Origin: a virus
DNA: 20,144 nucleotides
Direction: 5' to 3' (one strand)
IMG/VR virus record: IMGVR_UViG_3300008952_003255
Span: 1-20,144 of that record
A program made the position numbers and the translations under genes. Below are positions 7,422-19,291 of this stretch, piece by piece. Numbering within the stretch: position 1 is the first letter of the stretch; the number at the start of each line of letters is the position of its first letter. The notes under the pieces are model-generated. The model did no database searches, was not told the DNA's origin, and worked only from the letters and a program-made list of their open reading frames with translations.

Positions 7422-8039
7422 TCAAGCTTTCTCCGGTGCCGAGCCGTGCTTCTCAACGATCCTCTCGTAGCGAGCCGCAGCCGGCGTTTCTTTGAGTTTT
7501 GGGTTCTCCGCTAGTTCTGTACGGTCGATCTGCTGCACGATACGAGGGTGCAGGCGATGCTTTTTCATTCGCCGTGGTGCGGCTGTGTGAGACTGATTGA
7601 TCTCGCCATGGACCTCACGGTTGCTCTGCTGCAGGTCTTTTCGCAGATCGGACATGGTTCGCGTTTGATTCACAATCGCCTTTGGATCCCCGGGGAAACG
7701 GGCCACGGTCGGGATGTAGTGATCATCCGACTGCAGCTTGTAGCCGATCCTCGCAAGGTTCTTTCGCAGAGCTTCAACGGATCGCTGGTCACCACCCATA
7801 CGGTCGAGAATCGAACGACCGTGCCGGTTTTGATCAGCAATAAATGTGGTGTCGGTAATGCCAATACCCGGCGGTTCCTGCATCGCCAGAGACTCAGCCA
7901 TTCGCGGTGATGTGCCCTTCGCCACACACTCGACGAAAAACTGCAGAATACTCTTGCCACCAGTGCGCATCGGGTAATCGCCATACCGCTGCACGTCGAC
8001 TGGTATTTTTAGGTCCTTCAGATCACCCAGCTGTGCCAT
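7422..8039 (-). CDS. Hypothetical protein following the portal, 205 aa
   Basis: A mostly helical, basic protein (KNLARIGYKLQSDD, RTMSDLRKDLQQSNREVHGEI, RRMKKHRLHPRIVQQIDRTEL) with no recognised family. I start it at ATG 8039; GGGGG lies 7 nt upstream, and a GTG one codon earlier is in frame. It overlaps the end of the portal gene by 17 bp. A small gene directly after portal is common in phages, for example a head protein or an assembly factor, but nothing in the sequence decides this. Confidence 0.7.
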   Translation of the reverse strand: MAQLGDLKDLKIPVDVQRYGDYPMRTGGKSILQFFVECVAKGTSPRMAESLAMQEPPGIGITDTTFIADQNRHGRSILDRMGGDQRSVEALRKNLARIGYKLQSDDHYIPTVARFPGDPKAIVNQTRTMSDLRKDLQQSNREVHGEINQSHTAAPRRMKKHRLHPRIVQQIDRTELAENPKLKETPAAARYERIVEKHGSAPEKA

Positions 8040-10296
8040 CACTTAACCCCCGCTTCTGATTGTTTTCCTGTGCCGTAAACAGCAGACCCTGCACCTGCTC
8101 CTGTTCCCTGTGCAGAAGATCCTGCTGGTGCGACTCTTCCGTGTGCCTCAGGTCCTGCTGATGCTTGATCTCACCCAGAAGCCGCGTTGGCACCTGTGTC
8201 TCAACCATTGCGGCAGTCGCATCGATCATCGTTTTCTGGGCATCAGCCTGTTTGGCTACTGCCTCTGCGGCCTTCTTCTGAGCATCGGCCTCTTTTGCCG
8301 CCGCCTCAGCGGTCTTTCTCTGGATCTCTGCCTGAGCGTCGGCTGCTGCCAGCTCGTGTTCAACCTGCTGTTGCTCTTGTTGAATCTGCTGTTGCTCTGG
8401 ATCAACCGGTGGTCGCCATTCCGGAAGTTCGGCTGGCGATTCATGCATGTCCATCGCTTCGCCCATCTGCGACAGGAATACATTGAGTGGTTCCGTGTTT
8501 CCTGTTTCCTGGGCAAACACCTGCAGCATCGGCAGCAGGTACTGCTGGAGCGACTGAATGTTCGCAGTATCACGTTCCTTGTTTGGCCGACGAATCTCAG
8601 AGGCTTCTACCGATGCCTTGGATTCCCGCATGAACTGGTTGATATCAACGCCCTGGAAATACTGATCCCAATGCTGCGCTCCAACGGCACCCAGCAGGTG
8701 AGTGAGGCTTTGGCCCTCGACGTGCATCGCCGCGAGGAACATTTCCTTTTGCGATGCGTCAGTCATCCATCGCGCCACATCCCCGGACATCTTCTGCGGA
8801 CGAATGGAAAGGGCTTCCGTCTTCTGCCGGCTGTCAGCCGCGACCCGAATCTGCGTTCTGGATTCCCCGTACTGCAGCTCGTTCAGGCCGACCCTGCGAT
8901 TGAAGTTCTCCGAAAGGATCTGCATTGCCTGAAGCTGATCGCCCTGTGCCATCGGGCGGTCAAGCATCTGTATGATCTCATTGATGCTGCCGTGGATGTT
9001 GTCGTTCAGCTTGACGATCGCCGTCGATCGATCTTTCGACAGTGCTTCTTCAAGCTGTGAAAACGCCGACTGCGCACAGGCAATGATTCGCTTGCGATTC
9101 TCCCACGCCTGATCGACATACGACGACGTGAGGACATTGATTGCAATCAACTCACCCAGTCCAGGACTAAGCGGTGCCAGCGGCCAGGGAGACTTATCGA
9201 CCGGATTGTAGGAAAGGGCACTGACAGGCCACCTGCCGTCTCTCCAGACTTCGAATTCGTCCCCATAACCTGCACATCGCCACCGGAACATCTGCTCGAT
9301 GTCCTCAGTCCCGGCAGGTGACTCACCAAAGTAATTATGCGTTGGTGCATTCAGTGGGAATTGAACATTGGGTGAAATACACAGATAAGCAAAGTCACCA
9401 ATCGCATCATCGAACATGTCGACCATGTGGTGATTCAGTTTGTTCGTTCGCGGTCCAACGCCGACTTTGGACCAAACCTCAAACCACTCGATGCAGTCGA
9501 ACGTCCGGCCCCCGATGGTCTCCTGAGAAGCATTCTGACGCGCCATCGACTCAGAGGAATGTGCCGTGCCTTTCCCGTCGAGAGTTCCTCGCTCCAACCC
9601 GAATATACGCTCTACCTGCCAGATCGGATTGAAGTGCCGGCGAACGATGTAGCCCGCCGTTTCCCACAGTGGATCCTTACAATCCGGATCGATCAACAGG
9701 TTGTCGACCGTGTCGTAGTTCAGCCGAGTGTAAACGTCTTCAGACCCCGGCATCACATAGGTCTCAGGCCACAACAGCCCCATCCCTTTGATCAGGGATT
9801 CAATGATGGCCATCATGCCATGCTGCATCAACGTTCCCGGCTGTTCCCGCTGAGACCAGTTCAGGTAGATGCTCATCATTTCATTGATGAACTCCTGATA
9901 CGCATGGCTCGCCTGATCCTCAGCCATAAACTGCTGAGCGGCTTGCTGTATCTCCGGATCGTTGGGGTCTCCGAAAAGGTCCGGTGTCAACTCAAGCTGA
10001 CGCTGACTAATGACAGAACGATCCGCGTACTGCCAGAACAGATGCGGACCATAGATCGCCACGAACTCAAACGCCTTGGCGATGCAGATCGCGAAGCGAG
10101 GTTCAGGCATTTGGCCGTTGAAGTATTCCTTGCTCTTCCACATGAACCCCTTTTGGGATTCATAGAAATCGTTGCAGATTTTTCCGACATCGTTGAAGCG
10201 ACTCTTCGATGCCTGCGCAGCACGTATCCGCTCCATCCACACGTTGACGAGCGGACCGTAGAACTGCGACTGCATGTTTTCTGGAGAGGAATACAC
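8023..10296 (-). CDS. Portal protein, 757 aa, with long C-terminal coiled coil
   Basis: The long N-terminal part is consistent with the large portal class (P22-type length of about 700-750 residues): a helical start (YGPLVNVWMERIRAAQASKSRF), the mixed core with DNLLIDPDCKDPLWETAGYIVRRHFNP, and aromatic-rich strands. It directly follows the large terminase and a small gene, the normal place for portal. From about residue 635 to 740 there is a long Gln/Ala/Glu/Lys-rich heptad-like stretch (EIQRKTAEAAAKEADAQKKAA) that would form an extended coiled coil or barrel. The start is GTG (10296), with AAAGG about 8 nt upstream; the next ATG is at codon 8. The portal forms the dodecameric DNA gate at one capsid vertex and binds terminase. 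Confidence 0.8.
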   Translation of the reverse strand: MYSSPENMQSQFYGPLVNVWMERIRAAQASKSRFNDVGKICNDFYESQKGFMWKSKEYFNGQMPEPRFAICIAKAFEFVAIYGPHLFWQYADRSVISQRQLELTPDLFGDPNDPEIQQAAQQFMAEDQASHAYQEFINEMMSIYLNWSQREQPGTLMQHGMMAIIESLIKGMGLLWPETYVMPGSEDVYTRLNYDTVDNLLIDPDCKDPLWETAGYIVRRHFNPIWQVERIFGLERGTLDGKGTAHSSESMARQNASQETIGGRTFDCIEWFEVWSKVGVGPRTNKLNHHMVDMFDDAIGDFAYLCISPNVQFPLNAPTHNYFGESPAGTEDIEQMFRWRCAGYGDEFEVWRDGRWPVSALSYNPVDKSPWPLAPLSPGLGELIAINVLTSSYVDQAWENRKRIIACAQSAFSQLEEALSKDRSTAIVKLNDNIHGSINEIIQMLDRPMAQGDQLQAMQILSENFNRRVGLNELQYGESRTQIRVAADSRQKTEALSIRPQKMSGDVARWMTDASQKEMFLAAMHVEGQSLTHLLGAVGAQHWDQYFQGVDINQFMRESKASVEASEIRRPNKERDTANIQSLQQYLLPMLQVFAQETGNTEPLNVFLSQMGEAMDMHESPAELPEWRPPVDPEQQQIQQEQQQVEHELAAADAQAEIQRKTAEAAAKEADAQKKAAEAVAKQADAQKTMIDATAAMVETQVPTRLLGEIKHQQDLRHTEESHQQDLLHREQEQVQGLLFTAQENNQKRGLSDGTAG

Positions 10297-10306
10297 GGGC
10301 TAGCCT

Positions 10307-10546
10307 TTAATCTTTTTCAGCCCAGCAACCGGACCGTCGCCTGTGGTTTTCGCGAAGACCCTCATCGTCCTTGTGCCGAACACCCTGCGCGACCAGTGAT
10401 CCATCGGGCGTGAACGCCGTTAAACTCAAAATCCCCGGTGCGCCCACCTGGGTCACAATCGCTGGACAGGGGTCGTTACTAATCACGCCCTGGTTCCACC
10501 ACACCACAAAGTCGCCCACCTTGGGGCCTTCAGTCTTTTCAGCCAT
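10307..10546 (-). CDS. Small conserved phage protein, 79 aa
   Basis: A short beta-rich protein: GDFVVWWNQGVISNDPCPAI is followed by a strand and a C-terminal GVRHKDDEGL element. This VGD-x-V-x-W...A-I-V-T-x-V-G...GVRH pattern recurs in small phage proteins I have seen next to terminase and portal genes, but the function is unknown to me. It starts on ATG with AGGAG 8 nt upstream, and that ATG overlaps the TAA of the terminase gene (TAATG), so it is coupled to it. It lies between terminase and portal, and is probably a small head or connector component. Confidence 0.7.
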   Translation of the reverse strand: MAEKTEGPKVGDFVVWWNQGVISNDPCPAIVTQVGAPGILSLTAFTPDGSLVAQGVRHKDDEGLRENHRRRSGCWAEKD

Positions 10547-12300
10547 TACGGCGCTCCTATCGGAATGGAATAACTCTCGTGACTGACCGATGGGTTCCTC
10601 TCGTCGTATTCCCGATGCAGCTCGTGGTAATACCGATCAATCGGATCCAGTTTTTCTGGCTCGTCGTTCGCACGCTCTCGCCACGTCGGACGCCTGGAGA
10701 TCCAGTATTCGAGAGTGACCCGGCAGTCATTAACCTGATTGGGAGCCTCCTCCTCCAGAGGTTCTCCTTCAGGACTCGTCTTTCTGACATTCGTTCGAAG
10801 CTGTTTGACCAGATTCGGACAACGCTGATTGATAATCCGGAGCTGGGGACGGCCGCACTTTCGAGTCCGCATGGATCGAATCACCATTGAGGACCGTCGC
10901 GCGAAGTTGTCATCGCCGGCGATAAAGCCGTGACCCGTCTGGCGTGACTCCAGTCCTGCGCCGCGAAACGCTTTTTCGTACTGATAGTCAACGGTTTCGG
11001 TGAAGCCCGGTGGTTTCTGGCGACCCATCCGGCCGTCAATCACGAACCTCTCGAACCGGTAGTTCTGCTCCGTCTCCATCACCATACGAGCCAGATCAGC
11101 GGGACTGGCCCGACGAACAAAGATCTCACGGTACACGACATAGTAGGGCTCACCGTGATCCCAGAGCCGTGGAGGCGGAACAGCCCCCAACAGGATCGCT
11201 GGCTTTTGCGTTCCGGGGTCAAGGATGAGTTCACGAGTCCAGTCCGCCGGTGGATCCCAGTTATTCTCTTCCAGTGCCTCGGTGAGCCTGTCGTTCAGGG
11301 ACTCGTCGCTGTATTGCACCACATGAAAGTCAGGGTTGTAGTCCTGATAGATGCTGATCAGCTCTGTTGATCGCTCACCAAAGATTCTCGCCAACGCCTC
11401 ACGGTCACCCGTGCGAGCCAACGCCATGTCTTTAGCGCGATCAGAGATGAACGGGTTATCAAGAAAGCTCAGCGCTACCAGTAAGGTGATTTGCTCTGAT
11501 GGGTCTTTGTCCCCGTTCGCGATCTCTTCGGCTTCAGACTCTATGCGATCGAGGACACTATTGAAGACATAGCAGTCATCACGAGGCATCGTTGACCATA
11601 CCATGACCCCTTCGTTATCCCGTAATCGTGCAATCCATTCCTCGTAGTGTGTTTTCGTAACGAGGTTCTCATCGTTCCAGATGATGTGAACCGCATCCCC
11701 TTGTTTCACTTCACCAGACGATGCGAAGCCATGAATCGTCGTTCCGTCATTAAGCGTGACACAACGGAACTCATGCTCTCTGGCTCGTCCCGGTGCCCAC
11801 GCGATCTCCTTAATCAAATGAGCCGGAATCACCGGCGGGGCGACAATCGTCTCCTGTTTTAGGTCCCGGTCTCCAGGGAACACCTCAGGGCTCCACGCTC
11901 GCCATACGCCGGTTTCCGGATCGATCAGGATGCGACTAAGGCCGTCTGTCGGATGCTCGTCAAACAGCAGCCGGTAAATCGTTGCTCCGATGTGACGGAG
12001 GTGATCACCGATGACCCATGCATTGATTGAGTGGCCTCGCATTCGTTCCGGCCGGCAGTAGATCTTCTCCCCACTCCATGTCGTAATAGGCTCATCACGA
12101 ACGAAAGACGCGAAGAAGGCAGCCGCCAGCACAGTCTTCCCGGCGCGGTTACCAGCTTTAATCAGGATCTCAATGAAATCCCTATTCGTCATTCGGTGAA
12201 GTTCTTCCTCCTGTGCCTCTGTCGGGCGGAAGAGCTTAAGGCCGTCCATCTCATGGGTGTGCAGGGCATTCGCTGCTCGGATGAAATCTGCGGGTTTCAT
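10546..12300 (-). CDS. terL: Terminase large subunit (ATPase/nuclease), 584 aa
   Basis: This is the DNA-packaging motor that translocates phage DNA into the prohead through the portal and cuts it. Residues 50-56, GNRAGKT, are the Walker A loop of the ATPase. VHIIWNDE at 204-211 is the Walker B strand ending in Asp-Glu. In the C-terminal RNase H-like nuclease half, strand LILDPGTQ (Asp361) and FVIDGRMG (Asp422) supply catalytic acidic residues. The total length is normal for TerL. The ATG overlaps the stop of the zinc-ribbon gene as ATGA, and the end overlaps the next small gene, so it lies in the packaging block. The call is strong. Confidence 0.95.
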   Translation of the reverse strand: MKPADFIRAANALHTHEMDGLKLFRPTEAQEEELHRMTNRDFIEILIKAGNRAGKTVLAAAFFASFVRDEPITTWSGEKIYCRPERMRGHSINAWVIGDHLRHIGATIYRLLFDEHPTDGLSRILIDPETGVWRAWSPEVFPGDRDLKQETIVAPPVIPAHLIKEIAWAPGRAREHEFRCVTLNDGTTIHGFASSGEVKQGDAVHIIWNDENLVTKTHYEEWIARLRDNEGVMVWSTMPRDDCYVFNSVLDRIESEAEEIANGDKDPSEQITLLVALSFLDNPFISDRAKDMALARTGDREALARIFGERSTELISIYQDYNPDFHVVQYSDESLNDRLTEALEENNWDPPADWTRELILDPGTQKPAILLGAVPPPRLWDHGEPYYVVYREIFVRRASPADLARMVMETEQNYRFERFVIDGRMGRQKPPGFTETVDYQYEKAFRGAGLESRQTGHGFIAGDDNFARRSSMVIRSMRTRKCGRPQLRIINQRCPNLVKQLRTNVRKTSPEGEPLEEEAPNQVNDCRVTLEYWISRRPTWRERANDEPEKLDPIDRYYHELHREYDERNPSVSHESYSIPIGAP

Positions 12301-13083: not shown

Positions 13084-13156
13084 TGAGGAGCATCGGAGTC
13101 GAACCGACTGTCTTCGGGACATAATCCCGACGTGTAAACCGTTTCACTCGCTCCCA
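13084..13156 (-). tRNA. Probable tRNA-Ile (anticodon UAU), slightly degenerate
   Basis: Seventy-three bases on the minus strand fold as a tRNA. The acceptor stem TGGGAGC/GCTCCTC has six pairs (one G-U) but a mismatch at the first position. The D arm GTG/CAC has three pairs with a GG-containing loop. The anticodon stem TCGGG/CCCGA is perfect with loop ATTATGT, giving anticodon UAU (13121-13123), which reads AUA. The T arm is GTCGG/CCGAT with the canonical loop TTCGACT, and the discriminator is A. Deviations are the 1-72 mismatch, the short D stem and an atypical base at position 8. CCA is not encoded. It lies 13 nt after the decoration gene stop, inside the structural operon. It may boost decoding of rare AUA codons; alternatively it is a decayed tRNA or an att-site remnant. 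Confidence 0.65.
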
Positions 13157-13169
13157 GTATGACTTGTGA

Positions 13170-13667
13170 TTACAGGTAAACCCGCAGGGTGTCCCCGTTT
13201 GATTTTGCACCGCCAGCTTCCATCAGCCGGCCTCGGGCTGTGGCGACACTGTCGAGTGCTGTCTTCACTTTGCCTGACCCGGCACCGACGATCTTCGGAC
13301 CGGCAACCGCACCGTTGACAACCACATCAACTGGGCCTTCAACGATGAGCAGGAAGGTGTCTCCTGAGGCAACATCACCGGAAAGTTCCGGATCAACGAT
13401 GCCATCAATGACGCCGTCGTCAGCAGCCACAGCATCGACGTGCGTGCCATACTTTGCGGCGTTGAACTTGACTGCGTTTCCGGGAGACAGTGTTGCCTCC
13501 GCTTTCACGAGCCGAGCGTAAGTGATCGCCCCCGAAAGGTCGCGACGGATACGACTCCCAGACTGCTTTTCAGAGTCTGTGAGAATAAACCGCTCGCCAA
13601 GTTTCAGGCCATCATTGTCATCAATGATGTTTTTACGTCCGCGATTTTGGTCGACTGAGCGTTCCAT
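13170..13667 (-). CDS. Capsid decoration-like protein, 165 aa
   Basis: A small protein rich in Gly, Ala, Val and Asp with a clear beta-sheet tail: DGVIDGIVDPELSGDVASGD, then TFLLIVEGPVDVVVNGAVAG and KIVGAGSGKVKTAL. Strand runs of the LLIVEGPVDVVV type next to the major capsid protein are typical of DUF2190-like and other head decoration/stabilisation proteins. It starts with ATG behind GGAGA and lies just downstream of the capsid gene, as decoration genes usually do. It would bind the outer capsid surface as trimers. I infer the role from fold impression and context. Confidence 0.75.
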   Translation of the reverse strand: MERSVDQNRGRKNIIDDNDGLKLGERFILTDSEKQSGSRIRRDLSGAITYARLVKAEATLSPGNAVKFNAAKYGTHVDAVAADDGVIDGIVDPELSGDVASGDTFLLIVEGPVDVVVNGAVAGPKIVGAGSGKVKTALDSVATARGRLMEAGGAKSNGDTLRVYL

Positions 13668-13725: not shown

Positions 13726-14925
13726 TCAGCCTGCGTAGTGAGCTGTTGGTGCGAGCTTGCACATGAACTTCGGCTGCAGGCGAAGGTTGCCAAAAGTATT
13801 AGCTCGCATGACGTATGCACCATTCTCGGGCACCCAATCTGGTCCGTGCACATCGATCATGGGCTCGGTATCGCCAGGTGCTGGATTCTTCGTCTGGTAG
13901 TGGAACATCTCGATGTGATCCGGGCAGACGCCATATCCAACACCAGCCGGGCAGGCGTAGTCGGACTTGAAGGCAGCTCCGTCGATTTCAATCGAGTCGG
14001 CGATCGGGAAGCCCTGGTCGCCACCGCTGAACGGCTGAATCGTGCGGAATCGACTTGAGTAGTAGTTCTTCAGCTGAGCGTACATGTCTGAAGAGATCAT
14101 GAAGCAAGGCGGTACAGTGACCGGGCCAGTGCCATTCTTGCTTCGCAGAGCTTCAATCGCGTGGCGAACAACCGTCTCACAGTTGTCAGACCAGTTGTCT
14201 GAACCCCAGTCAGACGAGTCGTAGTTCCACAGCGTCGGAGACAGGGCGTCATACTCGGAATCGCCCTGACCAAACGGCCAGTCGTTATCCGCACCCTGCG
14301 TCTTATTGAGGCGGTCGGCAGAGCCGAGGTCTGTTGACCAGGATCCGCCGAAGTTCCCAAGCTCAGTGCTGTGGCCCCCGTAACTGTCTTTCGGCAGAAC
14401 CAGTCGATCCGTCGCGCCCGCGTTTGATCCGCCGTTACTGGCGTTCAAAGCTCCAAGGGCGGTCTCAAATCCCTGATAGCCGTCCTTGTAGGCTGCTGAG
14501 TCTCCGTCGCGATAGACAGCTTCCTGCATACGGCGACTGAGTGAGACAGCCATATGCTTCAGCTTAGATTCGTACAGGTTAATAAGCTGAGCTTCGCCCT
14601 GGTTTTCCTTCCACTGCAGTTCGCGAAGGACATCGTTGGTTTCGTATCCTCGAACCCCAACGGTCAGCGACTCGAATGCATCGTGGTCATGGAAGACTTT
14701 ATTGGTCGTATCCGAGAAGGTCTTCACCAGGTGCTCGTATACGAGGACCTGCCATTGCTTCGCGGTTCCCGAAGCGTTGTAAACCATGGTGCCCCACTGG
14801 GACATCAGGTTAAACAGGATGAAGTTACGCTTCGTTAAATCCGCATAGCCCTTCATATAGACGGGCGCTGAAGTGCGGATCGTGTTGATGTGCGCTTCTT
14901 GGATGAACTGGTCGTACTGTGGCAT
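13726..14925 (-). CDS. Major capsid protein (HK97-type fold), 399 aa
   Basis: A 399-residue protein directly downstream of a scaffold-like gene and upstream of a decoration-like gene. It has the long helical N-arm (YMKGYADLTKRNFILFNLMSQWG), the spine-helix region LYESKLKHMAVSLSRRMQEAVYRDGD with the S-x-R-R-M-x-x-A-x-Y-x-D-G pattern common in large phage capsid families, and a C-terminal domain with MISSDMYAQLKNYYSSRFR. These features are those of HK97-fold coat proteins, which assemble the icosahedral shell on a scaffold. GGAG lies about 10 nt before ATG 14925. Identity as coat is firm from context; subfamily not determined. Confidence 0.88.
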   Translation of the reverse strand: MPQYDQFIQEAHINTIRTSAPVYMKGYADLTKRNFILFNLMSQWGTMVYNASGTAKQWQVLVYEHLVKTFSDTTNKVFHDHDAFESLTVGVRGYETNDVLRELQWKENQGEAQLINLYESKLKHMAVSLSRRMQEAVYRDGDSAAYKDGYQGFETALGALNASNGGSNAGATDRLVLPKDSYGGHSTELGNFGGSWSTDLGSADRLNKTQGADNDWPFGQGDSEYDALSPTLWNYDSSDWGSDNWSDNCETVVRHAIEALRSKNGTGPVTVPPCFMISSDMYAQLKNYYSSRFRTIQPFSGGDQGFPIADSIEIDGAAFKSDYACPAGVGYGVCPDHIEMFHYQTKNPAPGDTEPMIDVHGPDWVPENGAYVMRANTFGNLRLQPKFMCKLAPTAHYAG

Positions 14926-14939
14926 GGGTGACTACTCCG

Positions 14940-16109
14940 TTAGCCAAGTTGCCCGTTTTGGGCGGCGATGATGCTTTGAAGATTTGGCAACCCTCCGCGA
15001 CCTGTCGGAACCTGAGCCCCGTTAGGCTGACGCGACGGACTTGCCAGTTGGTGTTCGGTTAAACGATTTTCCGGCATGCGTGGCGGCGTCTGTGCCACCT
15101 GCTGCATGAATGACTGCGATGCCTGTGTCGGCTGCTGCGGAGCCGGAACGGCGGGGGTGATCCCCGCAATCTGCATAGACTCAAGGACCTGCTCGTGAAT
15201 CTGCAGGGGGGAAAGATCTTGCGACTGCGGACGGCCCGAAATAGATCCGAAGAGCCGGTCGTATGTTTCGCCGTACCGCGTCAGCTTGTTTGCGCCGCGA
15301 TCTTCCCAAAGAGCGTTCGCATTCGTGTCGACCCAATTAGTGATCGCATCTTCCTGCGACGCCGATTGCTGGAAAGCCAGGTGCTGCTTTAGTTCATCAA
15401 TCTGTTCCTGAAGCTTTGACGTTTGTCCGTCAAAACCCAGCGAAGGCTTGATGTACTTGTCCGCAAACTCTTCAGGGTTATCAAAGAGCGTCACAGCCAT
15501 GGACTGGCGATAAGCCTCGACCTGATTCAGCTCGTCGGCAAACGCCTGCAGACCCGGATGTGTTGGCTCCCACCCTTTATCGCCTTTTCGGATCATGCCC
15601 TGTCGGGCCATCGCTTCGGCTTGTGGTGAGAGCTGTGGTTTTAAGCCAGCATCCGAGGCGGTAGCGGGTTCGGGTGCTGGCTGCGCTGGCAGCGCGTTCT
15701 CTGTTGTATTGCGGTTTGCCGATTGCTGGGATTCAAAGATCTCGTTGGCTCGATCGAGTTGATCGGCAATTGACTCGATGGTTTGACGGTCATTCATTCC
15801 GTCAAGGCCGGAGAATCCCACATCCTGAAACATCTTCGCGACGTTAGCCTGCGACTGTTCCTGTGTGGTTTGTGGCGAGCCTGCTGGTGCTGCAGCTGGT
15901 GGAGGGACTGCAGTTTGCGGTACGGCAGGACCATCACCAGCAGGCGCTGAATTCGTCGATGCCTGTTGATTCTGGAATGGGCTTACATCTGCTAACGAAG
16001 CGCTCGGCTGTGCGGCAGCACCTGGTGCAGGTTGCGATAGATTCCCCGCCTGACCGTTTTGACTAACGATCGAGTGCAGGGAGGGAGTTGTAGGAACGAT
16101 TTCACTCAT
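14940..16109 (-). CDS. Scaffold-type head assembly protein, 389 aa
   Basis: Low-complexity, Ala/Gln/Pro-rich at the N-terminus, with helical segments in the middle (IESIADQLDRANEIFESQQSA; SKLQEQIDELKQHLAFQQSA), a conserved-looking core DNPEEFADKYIKPSLGF and a tail ending NLQSIIAAQNGQLG. This profile (disordered start, coiled-coil middle, basic or polar C-terminus immediately before the coat gene) is that of phage scaffolding proteins, which shape the prohead and are then lost. I use the ATG at 16109; an in-frame TTG at 16169 would add 20 basic residues but lacks a ribosome site. The ATG has only a weak TAGG upstream. The intergenic gap upstream likely holds the promoter. Confidence 0.8.
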   Translation of the reverse strand: MSEIVPTTPSLHSIVSQNGQAGNLSQPAPGAAAQPSASLADVSPFQNQQASTNSAPAGDGPAVPQTAVPPPAAAPAGSPQTTQEQSQANVAKMFQDVGFSGLDGMNDRQTIESIADQLDRANEIFESQQSANRNTTENALPAQPAPEPATASDAGLKPQLSPQAEAMARQGMIRKGDKGWEPTHPGLQAFADELNQVEAYRQSMAVTLFDNPEEFADKYIKPSLGFDGQTSKLQEQIDELKQHLAFQQSASQEDAITNWVDTNANALWEDRGANKLTRYGETYDRLFGSISGRPQSQDLSPLQIHEQVLESMQIAGITPAVPAPQQPTQASQSFMQQVAQTPPRMPENRLTEHQLASPSRQPNGAQVPTGRGGLPNLQSIIAAQNGQLG

Positions 16110-16173
16110 GCCTAAAGCATGAGAATGTTTCCGTTTATGTATAGATGTAGTGAGGTCCTTCGGGCGCAAAAGG

Positions 16174-16213
16174 GAGTTTAGGACTTCCCGGAATTCGGCG
16201 GGGCGTTAAACTC
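16174..16213. repeat. 40-bp imperfect dyad centred on GAATTC
   Basis: GAGTTTA (16174-16180) and its inverse TAAACTC (16207-16213) flank a region whose centre is exactly the palindrome GAATTC (16191-16196). A few further symmetric C-G pairs lie between. Two 7-bp arms about 33 bp apart centre to centre, with a palindromic AT in the middle, fit a dimer or tetramer site for a serine recombinase, or an operator for the neighbouring helix-turn-helix protein. Both are inferences; the arms are short enough that chance is not excluded. Confidence 0.35.
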
Positions 16214-16237
16214 ACAAGTCGCTGCGAATGTTTCTCT

Positions 16238-16248
16238 GGAGGGGGAGG
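16238..16248 (+). promoter_or_regulatory. Strong ribosome binding site of the plus-strand gene
   Basis: GGAGGGGGAGG lies 8 nt upstream of the GTG at 16257. It fixes the start and shows this small convergent gene is probably translated. Confidence 0.7.
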
Positions 16249-16256
16249 ATTGCAGC

Positions 16257-16445
16257 GTGAGAGAAAACTCAAAACTATCACCCAAGGAAGCCTGTGCGTG
16301 GCTGCGCAGCCGTGGCTATGAAGTATCGCAGAAGCCGATTCTGCTAATGTGCCACCGAGGAGAGTTGCGGGGTGCCGTTAAGATTGGCGGGCGATGGTTC
16401 ATCCCCTGCGAATCTCTGCATCGGCTTGTCGACCCAGTCGTCTAG
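16257..16445 (+). CDS. Helix-turn-helix / excisionase-like protein, 62 aa
   Basis: A 62-residue basic protein and the only plus-strand gene supported here. LSPKEACAWLRSRGYEVSQKPILLMCHRGELRGAVKIGGRWFIPCESLHRLV follows the MerR/excisionase (HTH_17) plan: helix S-x-x-E-A-x-x-x-L, recognition helix, then G-x-(K)-I-G-G-R-W-F-I-P wing and a closing helix. The GTG start has a very strong ribosome site. Its last 102 bp overlap, in antisense, the 3' end of the two-domain serine recombinase. By position it could be a recombination directionality factor for that recombinase, or a repressor of the structural promoter. No function is proven. Confidence 0.75.
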   Translation: MRENSKLSPKEACAWLRSRGYEVSQKPILLMCHRGELRGAVKIGGRWFIPCESLHRLVDPVV

Positions 16446-17873
16446 GTCCAGCACTTCGCGGACTTCACAAAGGTCGCGACGAAGATCCTTCACTCGACAC
16501 CGCGTCCATTCTCGTAGGACCATCCCGTTTCTGACACGTGGTCGGCCGGACAGCCAGTCTTTCAGGGCCTGCTTATGGGGTGATGGCATCTTACCTCTAT
16601 GGGCACGACGCATAATAAGATCAGGATCAAAGCCGTTTCGCGGCATGACGGGACGGTTCTGCCGCTTCGCAACACGACTCTCCATCGTGTCAGCGACTTT
16701 GTCCTGTGACAGACCCAGATTCAGCAGGTCTTCCGCCTCCAGCATTTCATTAATGGCCACCATATTGGGATGAGCCGCCCATTCCCCGGTAACAGGATCG
16801 TCGACAGACTTCATCCAATACGGCAAGTGACGCGCTGAATGCCACTTCCCTTTGAGTAATCGTCGGTGCTTCAACGCAAGACGGATCCTCACGCTCGAAG
16901 CACGAGACTCCCAGCTCGCCATCATCGCTAACAGCTCAATGAGCTGAAGACCGATCTCCGAACGAGTGTCCACGCCGCAACAGGTCACCACGCTGACGCC
17001 GCGTTCACTCAGTGCCTGGATCGAAATCGCCATATCGCGAACCGAACGGAACAACCTGTCGACACGCGAAACAACAATGCAGTCCCCGGATCGCAGTTCC
17101 TGATGCAGTTCACTGCCGGCAGGTCGGTGTTTCCAGTCGACAGCGAACGCTGAAACGCCATGATCAACGAAGACTTCGTCGGCATCATGCAGCCCATCAG
17201 CACACAACTGATCAATCCGGCTGTTGACCTGCTCGGTTTGAGCTTCCATGTCCTGAACACTTCGCGAGACGCGAACATATCCGAACACTCGTCCCACTTT
17301 TTCCTGCTCTTTTGGTTCCGGTGGCTCCCCGAGCTTGTGGACTTCAGCCAGTAACGGGTCATCGGACTGACGACGAGATGGCGGTAGTTCATGCTTTTTC
17401 CGTCGACCGCGAAAACGATAGGAGTCCCGGACCCTCTGGCTGATCAGCTCTGACTTGTACTGTGCAAAAGACGCCATCACATGCGCCATCAGCCGGCCTG
17501 TCGCCGTCTGCATGTCCACCTGATCAGAGACGAAGATCGGGTTGATCTCGGCCTTCTGGAACTTCGGCCATGTATGACTGAAATCATGGACGGAACGAAA
17601 CGCCCGATCCAAAGACAGGAAGGCAATGTTGTCTCCGGGCTTGCAGGCAAACCATAACTGCTGGAATCCCGGCCGTTCAAACAGGGGTATCTTCCACGCC
17701 GATACACCGGGGTCAGAAAAGACCCCGGGATTGTCGTAGTTCGATTCCTCCCCCAGTGTCAGGCCGTGACGCTCGCAATAGGAACGGCACTCACGAGCCT
17801 GATCAGGCAGGGAGGATCCATCGACCACCTGTTCTTTCGACGAAACTCTGCAGTAAATGTATGTGTTACCCAA
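16344..17873 (-). CDS. Serine recombinase with two tandem catalytic domains, 509 aa
   Basis: Serine recombinases cut and rejoin DNA through a covalent 5'-phosphoserine link. This protein has two resolvase-type catalytic domains in one chain. Domain 1 (about 3-157) has YCRVSS with Ser11 and Arg9, DPGVSAW, and LDRAFR (Arg90, Arg93), ending in a long helix ATGRLMAHVMASFAQYKSEL. Domain 2 (about 195-340) repeats the plan: YVRVSR with Ser203 and Arg201, DHGVSAF, VDRLFR (Arg273, Arg276) and helix IGLQLIELLAMMASWESRA. Both appear intact. A basic C-terminus follows, with a possible helix-turn-helix near 375-410. The start is TTG with AAGGA 6 nt before it, overlapping the previous stop, so it is coupled to a decoration gene. 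It may be the integrase or an invertase/resolvase. Confidence 0.9.
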   Translation of the reverse strand: MGNTYIYCRVSSKEQVVDGSSLPDQARECRSYCERHGLTLGEESNYDNPGVFSDPGVSAWKIPLFERPGFQQLWFACKPGDNIAFLSLDRAFRSVHDFSHTWPKFQKAEINPIFVSDQVDMQTATGRLMAHVMASFAQYKSELISQRVRDSYRFRGRRKKHELPPSRRQSDDPLLAEVHKLGEPPEPKEQEKVGRVFGYVRVSRSVQDMEAQTEQVNSRIDQLCADGLHDADEVFVDHGVSAFAVDWKHRPAGSELHQELRSGDCIVVSRVDRLFRSVRDMAISIQALSERGVSVVTCCGVDTRSEIGLQLIELLAMMASWESRASSVRIRLALKHRRLLKGKWHSARHLPYWMKSVDDPVTGEWAAHPNMVAINEMLEAEDLLNLGLSQDKVADTMESRVAKRQNRPVMPRNGFDPDLIMRRAHRGKMPSPHKQALKDWLSGRPRVRNGMVLREWTRCRVKDLRRDLCEVREVLDLDDWVDKPMQRFAGDEPSPANLNGTPQLSSVAH

Positions 17874-17882
17874 TGCTGATCC

Positions 17883-18290
17883 TTACAGAATGATTGTGTT
17901 CGCCGGATTGACGACCCAGATGTAGGCAATACTGGTCGTCTCAGCCCAGAAGATCGGAACGACAGCGTCACCGGTTGTCAGGTCAGACTGCGGGGCAATC
18001 TTTCCTGAGTTCGTGGACAGGCAGTACGTCACGCCTTTTGTCAGGATCGCCCCCAGGTCGACCCGGGCACCCTGTGGAAGCAACAGGCCCGTCCCGCCTG
18101 TACTACTGGTGCTGTAACAAATCCCCGCGACTTCATCTTTGTCCGTGTCTGAAGCCGTAGCCTTGCTGTAAGCACCAGTGTTGTCGACATACAAAGGCTG
18201 GAACATCGTCACGGCCTCCCCGACTTCGACCGACATCATTTGCATGCCGGCGTCCAGAAGTGTGACAGTTCCAATCGTTAAGTCCGCCAT
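17883..18290 (-). CDS. Second decoration-like virion protein, 135 aa
   Basis: A compact beta-rich protein (MADLTIGTVTLLDAGMQMMSVEVGEAVTMFQPLYVDNTGAYSKATASD...), of the DUF2190-like or phage capsid decoration type: an N-terminal strand pair, G-x-A-V-x-x-x-Q-P-L-Y-V-D, then a Gly/Thr-rich loop and a C-terminal strand ending IAYIWVVNPANTIIL. The ATG has GGAGGAG 6 nt upstream. It is coupled to the recombinase, whose ribosome site overlaps its stop, and is separated from the main head genes by that recombinase. Function inferred from similarity of plan to small head proteins. Confidence 0.75.
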   Translation of the reverse strand: MADLTIGTVTLLDAGMQMMSVEVGEAVTMFQPLYVDNTGAYSKATASDTDKDEVAGICYSTSSTGGTGLLLPQGARVDLGAILTKGVTYCLSTNSGKIAPQSDLTTGDAVVPIFWAETTSIAYIWVVNPANTIIL

Positions 18291-18303: not shown

Positions 18304-18693
18304 CTAAGTTGTCATCCATGTGAACACGGGGATGTGAAGTTTCCCCGCAGTAAGTTTAGCTCGCTCCAGATACTTCGCTTCTGTCGGCTTGCCACGCAAA
18401 AGCAGGATAATAGCCGGCTGTCGCTCCGTCATGAGTCCATAGTACACCGCCTGTGCTATTCCTTCGTGCGCTGTCTTCACCCAGTCGACTTCGCACGCCA
18501 GTGTGTCCGTCAGGATGTCTACTCGCCCTCTGCACGGTAATTGGTATTCGGCAACACCTCCCATTTGCTCCGCAAGCCAGCGGGACCAGACAGGCTCAGG
18601 GTCCGTTGGTAATGGCCTTTCGCGATGAGAGCCCTCTTCCGTCAACTCTTCTTCCTCATGTTCTTCACGAACACCGGACGCAGAGCAAACCAT
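18304..18693 (-). CDS. PD-(D/E)XK nuclease-like protein, up to 129 aa
   Basis: The core GRVDILTDTLACEVDWVKTA continues into a helix HEGIAQAVYYGLM and a strand PAIILLLRG. That is Asp59 on one strand and Glu68-x-Asp70...Lys73 on the next, followed by a Q-A-x-Y-Y helix, a plan shared with small PD-(D/E)XK-like phage and bacterial proteins. A real endonuclease role is not proven; some relatives are of unknown function. The first 30 residues are acidic and may not be translated: an alternative TTG start at 18645 forms TTGA with the stop of the upstream helix-turn-helix gene. The gene follows that regulator directly in the same orientation. Confidence 0.7.
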   Translation of the reverse strand: MVCSASGVREEHEEEELTEEGSHRERPLPTDPEPVWSRWLAEQMGGVAEYQLPCRGRVDILTDTLACEVDWVKTAHEGIAQAVYYGLMTERQPAIILLLRGKPTEAKYLERAKLTAGKLHIPVFTWMTT

Positions 18694-18953
18694 CCCCCGG
18701 CATCCGAATACTCCGCATCAGATCCCAGCTCCTTCAGCAGCTTGATGTCACGGCGAACTGTGTCCTGAGATACACACAGCACTCGCGAAAGCTGTTCACG
18801 CGAATAGGGAGCGGTCATCAGTAAACCCTCAAGCTCCATGAGTCTCTTGGTCTGATCTTTACCCAACGATCCAACCTTACCTGGCTTGTCCTCTTCCCGG
18901 ATGCCTGCAGGAATCTCCACCGATACCAAATCATCACCCGGTTGCCGTTTCAC
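18642..18953 (-). CDS. DeoR-like helix-turn-helix regulator, about 103 aa
   Basis: The clear part is the C-terminal half: TKRLMELEGLLMTAPYSREQ, then LSRVLCVSQDTVRRDIKLLKELG, the classic DeoR/HTH_11-type helix-turn-helix with S-x-D-T-V-R-R-D-I in the recognition helix, followed by a small wing (GGWFALRPVF). It probably binds DNA as a transcriptional regulator of this accessory region, or as a packaging or replication factor. The start is uncertain. The frame is open back to a GTG at 19052, but the GTG at 18953 behind GGAGG is chosen because the longer version overlaps the end of the upstream gene. Starts nearer 18920 are also possible. Confidence 0.65.
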   Translation of the reverse strand: MKRQPGDDLVSVEIPAGIREEDKPGKVGSLGKDQTKRLMELEGLLMTAPYSREQLSRVLCVSQDTVRRDIKLLKELGSDAEYSDAGGWFALRPVFVKNMRKKS

Positions 18954-19021
18954 GTTCCTCCAATGCCTCCATGTCTTCAATCGTGAGGGCACGGTTCTGC
19001 GCCCATTCACAGAATAAACCG

Positions 19022-19291
19022 CTACTCGTCCCCGTCCTTCATCTCTTTCCACGCCGTGATCACCTTGAGAGCCCCGGCAAACGCCAGTAAACCCACAAGT
19101 TCCTCCGGATCCAGATTCCTGCCGGGACGGGACCGGGGGACGAGCGGAGCGATGTACTCCGTCACGAACTTGTAGAACTCGGTTTCACCACTCCATTCCA
19201 TTAGATCGATCAGCATCTGCTGCACCTGATCCCCCTTGTGAATCATCAAAACCCAGAACTGCTCATCGCTCACTTCCTCCTCGTTAGTCAT
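19022..19291 (-). CDS. Small acidic hypothetical protein, 89 aa
   Basis: MTNEEEVSDEQFWVLMIHKG opens a largely helical protein (QVQQMLIDLMEWSGETEFYKFVTEYIAPLVP; EELVGLLAFAGALKVITAWKEM). No family recognised. I start at ATG 19291, which has AGGAAGAGG upstream; a longer frame reaching 19339 would overlap the previous gene by much more. As written it overlaps that gene by 8 bp, a typical coupled arrangement. Role unknown; it lies among small accessory genes with a zinc protein and a regulator. Confidence 0.65.
   Translation of the reverse strand: MTNEEEVSDEQFWVLMIHKGDQVQQMLIDLMEWSGETEFYKFVTEYIAPLVPRSRPGRNLDPEELVGLLAFAGALKVITAWKEMKDGDE

Follow-up and report, generated by a model that had tools for sequence, protein, structure and literature searches.

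A 20,144-nt stretch of viral DNA from an IMG/VR record, referred to here as the window, was described in a preliminary account as encoding one protein with two complete serine-recombinase catalytic domains, which raises the questions of whether such a chain is real, how its halves are related, and what a virus would use it for. In serine recombinases, one half of a symmetric tetramer rotates, and the equivalence of the subunits is a basic constraint on how these enzymes are studied and engineered.

Architecture of the recombinase gene and its product

The open reading frame that had been reported at 16344–17873 is present. It lies on the minus strand, which had gone unstated, and comprises the following features, in which RD denotes the recombinase domain of large serine integrases.

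16344..17873, minus strand: gene for the dual serine recombinase (509 aa), with a TTG start and two PF00239 matches
17397..17873, minus strand: D1, residues 1–159, comprising the first catalytic domain and its helix E (PF00239 at residues 5–152; helix 124–159 in the model)
17841–17843, minus strand: codon for Ser11 of D1
17298..17396, minus strand: inter-domain linker, residues 160–192, predicted to be disordered (pLDDT < 50)
16851..17297, minus strand: D2, residues 193–341, comprising the second catalytic domain and its helix E (PF00239; helix 306–341 in the model)
17265–17267, minus strand: codon for Ser203 of D2
16434..16850, minus strand: C-terminal domain, residues 342–480, RD-like by Foldseek match, with a weak profile match

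The TTG start is preceded by AGGA, which overlaps the upstream stop and constitutes a plausible ribosome-binding site. In Pfam, PF00239 (Resolvase) matched the protein in two stretches (E = 2.9e-50 for the whole protein), and scoring the domains apart gave E-values of 5e-28 for D1 and 1e-25 for D2; the two are 26% identical to one another (E = 3e-13). The catalytic residues and motifs that had been read in both halves proved correct on inspection, with R9/S11, DPGVSA and LDRAFR (88–93) in D1, and R201/S203, DHGVSA and VDRLFR (271–276) in D2. Structure prediction had been proposed as a check, and in the resulting AlphaFold2 model each half forms a complete serine-recombinase fold with a 36-residue helix E, while the linker is disordered; together with the double PF00239 match, these two modelled folds bear out the reading of two complete catalytic domains in one chain. 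The pTM of the model was 0.41, and the placement of D1 relative to D2 is therefore not predicted by it. All PDB matches to the model at E ≤ 0.001 in Foldseek were serine recombinases, with Bxb1 at the top, and the best PHROG was phrog_95, an integrase family. With its catalytic Ser/Arg set and long helix E, the dual recombinase belongs to the serine recombinase superfamily (PF00239); that each chain holds two catalytic domains, where the known small and large classes usually have one, sets its build apart but is no argument against homology to that superfamily.

A further domain is present after D2 only, with none after D1. Using Foldseek, we found that D2 and this C-terminal domain together had their best fold match in Bxb1 integrase (9iu2, 306 columns), and that they also matched the NTD-RD portion of phiC31 integrase (4bqq) over 316 columns, nearly the whole model. 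The C-terminal domain aligned collinearly but weakly with an RD profile (hhalign probability 2.6%), and Pfam returned no match to the C-terminal region. From its modelled fold, we consider this domain to resemble the RD of large serine integrases. Neither Pfam nor the alignment, which has no conserved set of Cys residues, revealed a zinc ribbon in the C-terminal region, and no coiled coil was detected. In known serine integrases, the zinc ribbon/coiled-coil region controls directionality (PMC3783163); since neither element was detected in the dual recombinase, its control must differ from theirs.

Recurrence, origin and divergence of the two halves

A search for the fused architecture elsewhere had also been suggested, and we found it in 14 distinct dual proteins: those of the window, L016, L019, L108, L113, L112, L025, L161, L155, L157, L153, L162, L159 and L248. 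The first dual relative, 46% identical and encoded on a 70 kb contig (3300023240_000018), came from an alignment-based search, and later rounds added more. Exact-peptide searches with the window protein or its terminase large subunit (TerL) as a lone query gave no relative among viral or genome contigs, indicating that aligned queries were needed to reach the relatives. In phage and plasmid records, no place covered 80% of the window recombinase query. Another 166 ORFs in the same loci matched the catalytic-domain profile and were not dual, a set that includes a few contig-end fragments of dual genes, and none of the viral records with a complete dual gene held a second PF00239 gene. In G003 the contig border truncates a dual gene, of which the D2 end is present, and the contigs of TerL relatives L105–L107, L109 and others (G010–G013) stop short of the recombinase position. 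L019 (JAAENG010000284.1, contig C284) is viral over its whole length and was binned in a Chloroflexi MAG, Bse_26; among 300 genomes sampled from the phylum of this MAG, we found no other dual protein.

The notion that the fusion is an artefact of sequencing or assembly or of joining two genes, or that D2 is translated on its own from an internal start, has a negligible likelihood, given that the plausible internal GTG with AGGA just ahead of D2 in the window was rejected as a start because it is missing from the six relatives inspected, while the recurrence of the fusion in 14 distinct proteins from unrelated, independent contigs excludes an assembly or chance fusion.

We then considered where the two domains came from. 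In a phylogenetic tree, D1 formed one group (support 89/80) and D2 another (100/97, counting in it L110, a contig-end fragment with an L016-type D2, i.e., the cut end of a dual gene), and the remaining single-domain enzymes fell into one group (95/84); a tree of a smaller set was also run. D1 and D2 each divide into the same two virus subgroups. That the D1 and D2 clades are separate, and lie outside all sampled single-domain enzymes, suggests one ancient tandem duplication, before the virus group diversified, as the simplest history. Alternatively, given the limited sampling of single-domain enzymes, two closely related enzymes may have been fused. The identity of 26% and the separate clades agree with the initial view that the duplication was not recent.

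To compare the active sites, we aligned 13 D1, 13 D2 and 47 other domains, using the numbering of gamma-delta resolvase. The core residues Y6, R8, S10, Q14, Q19, R45, R68 and R71 were invariant in D1 (13/13) and in D2 (13/13), in line with the complete active sites first ascribed to both halves. The equivalent of Asp67 was lost from eight of the 13 D1 sequences (His in seven, Ser in one), and that of Arg125 was replaced in nine of the 13 D2 sequences, by Lys in two of them; these losses make the activity of each half in every lineage uncertain. At the helix-E position corresponding to E118, all 13 D2 sequences have Glu, as do most single-domain enzymes (Glu/Asp in 45/47), whereas all 13 D1 sequences have Lys or Arg. 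This charge pattern was first noticed in seven proteins, and held in the six found later and in L248.

Between the close relatives L155, L157 and L153, dN/dS was 0.04–0.055 for D1 and 0.03–0.043 for D2, compared with 0.09–0.14 for the linker and 0.05–0.11 for the C-terminal region. These low values point to strong purifying selection on both D1 and D2, and judging from such conservation both domains look functional. We accordingly weighed, and find very improbable, the idea that D1 is a decaying remnant of the duplication: Asp67 and the helix-E Glu are indeed gone from D1, but the slow evolution of its catalytic region between close relatives, and the invariance of its catalytic residues across deep divergence, largely refute this reading at the sequence level.

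The fixed charge reversal at E118 suggests that D1 and D2 have become non-equivalent partners, and is what would be expected of a D1 that pairs with D2 instead of with another D1. Non-equivalence of the halves had been raised as an idea in the preliminary description, and both the reversal, seen in D1 only, and the extra domain, found after D2 only, lend it independent support. The distance from the helix-E Arg of D1 to the Tyr of D2 is 51–58 aa in 13 of the 14 members (69 in L019); that this spacing is kept although the linker sequence is poorly conserved across the dual proteins is consistent with a tether of selected length.

The reading we prefer, which we regard as evenly poised, is that an ancestral domain was duplicated in tandem within one chain, that D1 and D2 diverged into partners forming a two-chain synapse, and that the enzyme carries out phage integration and excision together with a small HTH_17 protein encoded beside it (see below). 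The ancestral catalytic domain would have been kept as D1, a flexible linker of ~33 aa, D2, and an RD-like DNA-binding domain. D1 would pair with D2 through helix E, within or between chains, and not with its own kind; two chains, contributing four serines, would then make up the synaptic tetramer for which other serine recombinases need four chains, and both halves would take part in catalysis. With a sequence-specific C-terminal domain on D2 only, the enzyme would read one half-site of a crossover site differently from the other, and the HTH_17 protein would serve as a directionality factor and/or a regulator of the divergent promoter. We put forward only tentatively, as somewhat less than an even prospect, the strict form of this mechanism, namely an obligately heterotypic chain in which reversed helix-E charges permit D1:D2 pairing only, the synapse of two polypeptides rotates, sites are read asymmetrically and HTH_17 sets the direction.

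It is unlikely, though well worth weighing, that D1 instead has a structural or regulatory role, in which case four chains would synapse via D2 while the D1 domains pair together or bind an accessory site, taking over what the coiled coils do in large integrases or what the subunits at accessory sites do in Tn3 resolvase. Such a role would fit the RD-like domain following D2 only, the loss of Asp67 from D1 in 8/13 lineages, and a protein that is without the zinc ribbon/coiled-coil region governing synapsis in known serine integrases (PMC3783163). However, the nucleophile and the other remaining core residues of the D1 active site are invariant (13/13), D1 evolves as slowly as D2, and Ser, Gln and four Arg would not be needed for a purely structural role.

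Genomic setting and biological role

The genes surrounding the recombinase bear on its function, and those we could assign in the window are listed here.

18642..19052, minus strand: DeoR-like HTH protein encoded upstream of the recombinase; L108, L019, L016 and L116 have homologues upstream as well
16257..16445, plus strand: HTH_17 (Xis-like) protein, 62 aa, convergent with the recombinase gene and overlapping its 3′ end
16110..16256, no strand: non-coding divergent region from the HTH_17 start to the scaffold-gene start, partly conserved in close relatives
14940..16109, minus strand: Pro/Gln-rich scaffold-like gene heading the structural block (conserved position, homology; start inferred at MSEIV)
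13726..14925, minus strand: major capsid protein (phrog_9953, major head protein, E = 4e-4; conserved)
10546..12300, minus strand: TerL (phrog_2, E = 1.6e-8)
8023..10296, minus strand: portal protein (weak match to phrog_1216, E = 0.011; conserved position)

The relatives share the order dual recombinase, convergent HTH_17 gene, scaffold-like, capsid, TerL and portal. The HTH_17 protein of the window matched PF12728 just under the cut-off of 27 bits (25.6 bits, E = 1.4e-5), and its homologue in L108 scored above it (28.4 bits). A homologue is found at this position in 12 of the 13 dual genomes, with no detectable copy in L112, and the relative G009, whose TerL is 35% identical, is without both the recombinase and HTH_17. 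Close relatives have a terminator-like hairpin between the recombinase and HTH_17 genes. The divergent region, 127–165 bp long in most relatives and 218 bp in L113, is a candidate promoter and recombinase or HTH binding region; because the HTH_17 gene diverges from the structural operon over these 127–218 bp, its product may be a transcription regulator, a directionality factor, or both.

Non-coding DNA before the scaffold gene contains the motif ATTCTCATGCTT (window ~16105–16130, minus strand), common to the window and its distant relatives L155, L157 and L153. The window copy makes a small palindrome, CTCATGC-TTTA-GGCATGAG, and the motif is possibly a late promoter or binding site. Two cement-like genes lie on the minus strand, one directly upstream of the recombinase and away from the capsid gene (17883–18290, weak Phage_cement matches), the other judged by its position after the capsid gene (13170–13667). 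Also on this strand are a gene for a small protein that by eye has the look of a PD-(D/E)XK nuclease, with no Pfam or PHROG match (18304–18693), and, within the structural gene block, a tRNA-Ile with anticodon TAT (13085–13155). Rfam returned nothing in the window.

Complete-looking relatives have circularly permuted genomes of ~67 kb with their own replication genes (DNA polymerase A, prim-pol and helicase) as well as MazG. Dual-recombinase genomes of this size are G005 (L133–L136), G315 (L227–L230) and G316 (L231–L234), two of which are circularly permuted relative to each other. Among the families listed by Pfam and PHROG for 38 proteins of a complete-looking relative there were no lysogeny genes, and phage records queried with the window TerL held no match to this TerL family. 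The ~67 kb phages with a dual recombinase are apparently a distinct lineage.

From its gene content and domains, the dual recombinase is probably an integrase/excisionase working with the HTH_17 protein, a role favoured by the integrase-like C-terminal domain, by phrog_95 as the best PHROG and by the Xis-like neighbour. In MAG contig C284 and among the repeats around the gene, we found no provirus, att site or host junction; a provirus in MAG Bse_26 was rejected, as the contig is viral throughout. Att repeats or an invertible segment around the gene were likewise rejected, with nothing beyond shuffled controls.

A less probable but serious rival is that the phage does not integrate and uses the enzyme to resolve genome multimers or as a switch for DNA rearrangement. 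Multimer resolution in particular draws weight from the lack of any host junction found, the permuted ~67 kb genomes, the relatives' own replication genes and MazG, and the absence of recognized lysogeny genes, and the recombinase gene heads the structural block beside the divergent promoter region. Against this, there are no flanking inverted repeats beyond chance and no inversion between close relatives, and the C-terminal domain is integrase-like, with a neighbour from the Xis-like HTH_17 family.

Comparison with known systems

The dual recombinase looks like a naturally occurring "heterodimer" in a single chain, a version of an enzyme that usually consists of four separate identical subunits. 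With a natural enzyme whose chain holds two non-equivalent catalytic domains, each subunit position could be mutated on its own, and experiments could then directly address subunit-specific cleavage, the order in which strands are cut and the rotation interface. It is moreover an unusual recombination module that identifies a distinct phage lineage, in a virus group that is little known. Full-text searches covering part of the literature found no paper on tandem serine-recombinase catalytic domains, and our searches, a non-exhaustive check of phage and plasmid records and of that literature, agree with the earlier statement that known serine recombinases are single-catalytic-domain proteins.

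The small serine recombinases (gamma-delta/Tn3 resolvase, Gin/Hin) have the same catalytic fold and active-site residues, but the dual enzyme has two catalytic domains, and a C-terminal domain of ~140 aa in place of a short HTH. Large serine recombinases (Bxb1, phiC31, TP901-1, A118/LI) share PF00239 with it, and D2 with the C-terminal domain matches Bxb1 and the phiC31 NTD-RD by fold; compared with these large enzymes, the dual enzyme has an extra complete catalytic domain before D2, is without a detected zinc ribbon or coiled coil, and has the helix-E charge of D1 reversed.

Among NCBIfam models, the best match for the window protein was XisF, the fdxN element excision recombinase, which matched in two stretches at 98 bits (cut-off 375); to our knowledge, XisF has no second catalytic domain. 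IS607-family TnpA gave a weak NCBIfam match (38 bits). In that family a serine catalytic domain is linked to a winged-helix DNA-binding domain (PMC6188088), the winged helix being fused N-terminally to one catalytic domain, whereas in the dual system the HTH_17 protein is separate. The nearest functional parallel is CcrA/CcrB, in which two diverged serine recombinases serve one element (PMC6222049), and the CcrB and CcrC models match the dual proteins weakly. CcrA and CcrB are, however, separate full-length large serine recombinases, while the two catalytic domains of the dual enzyme share one chain and one C-terminal domain.
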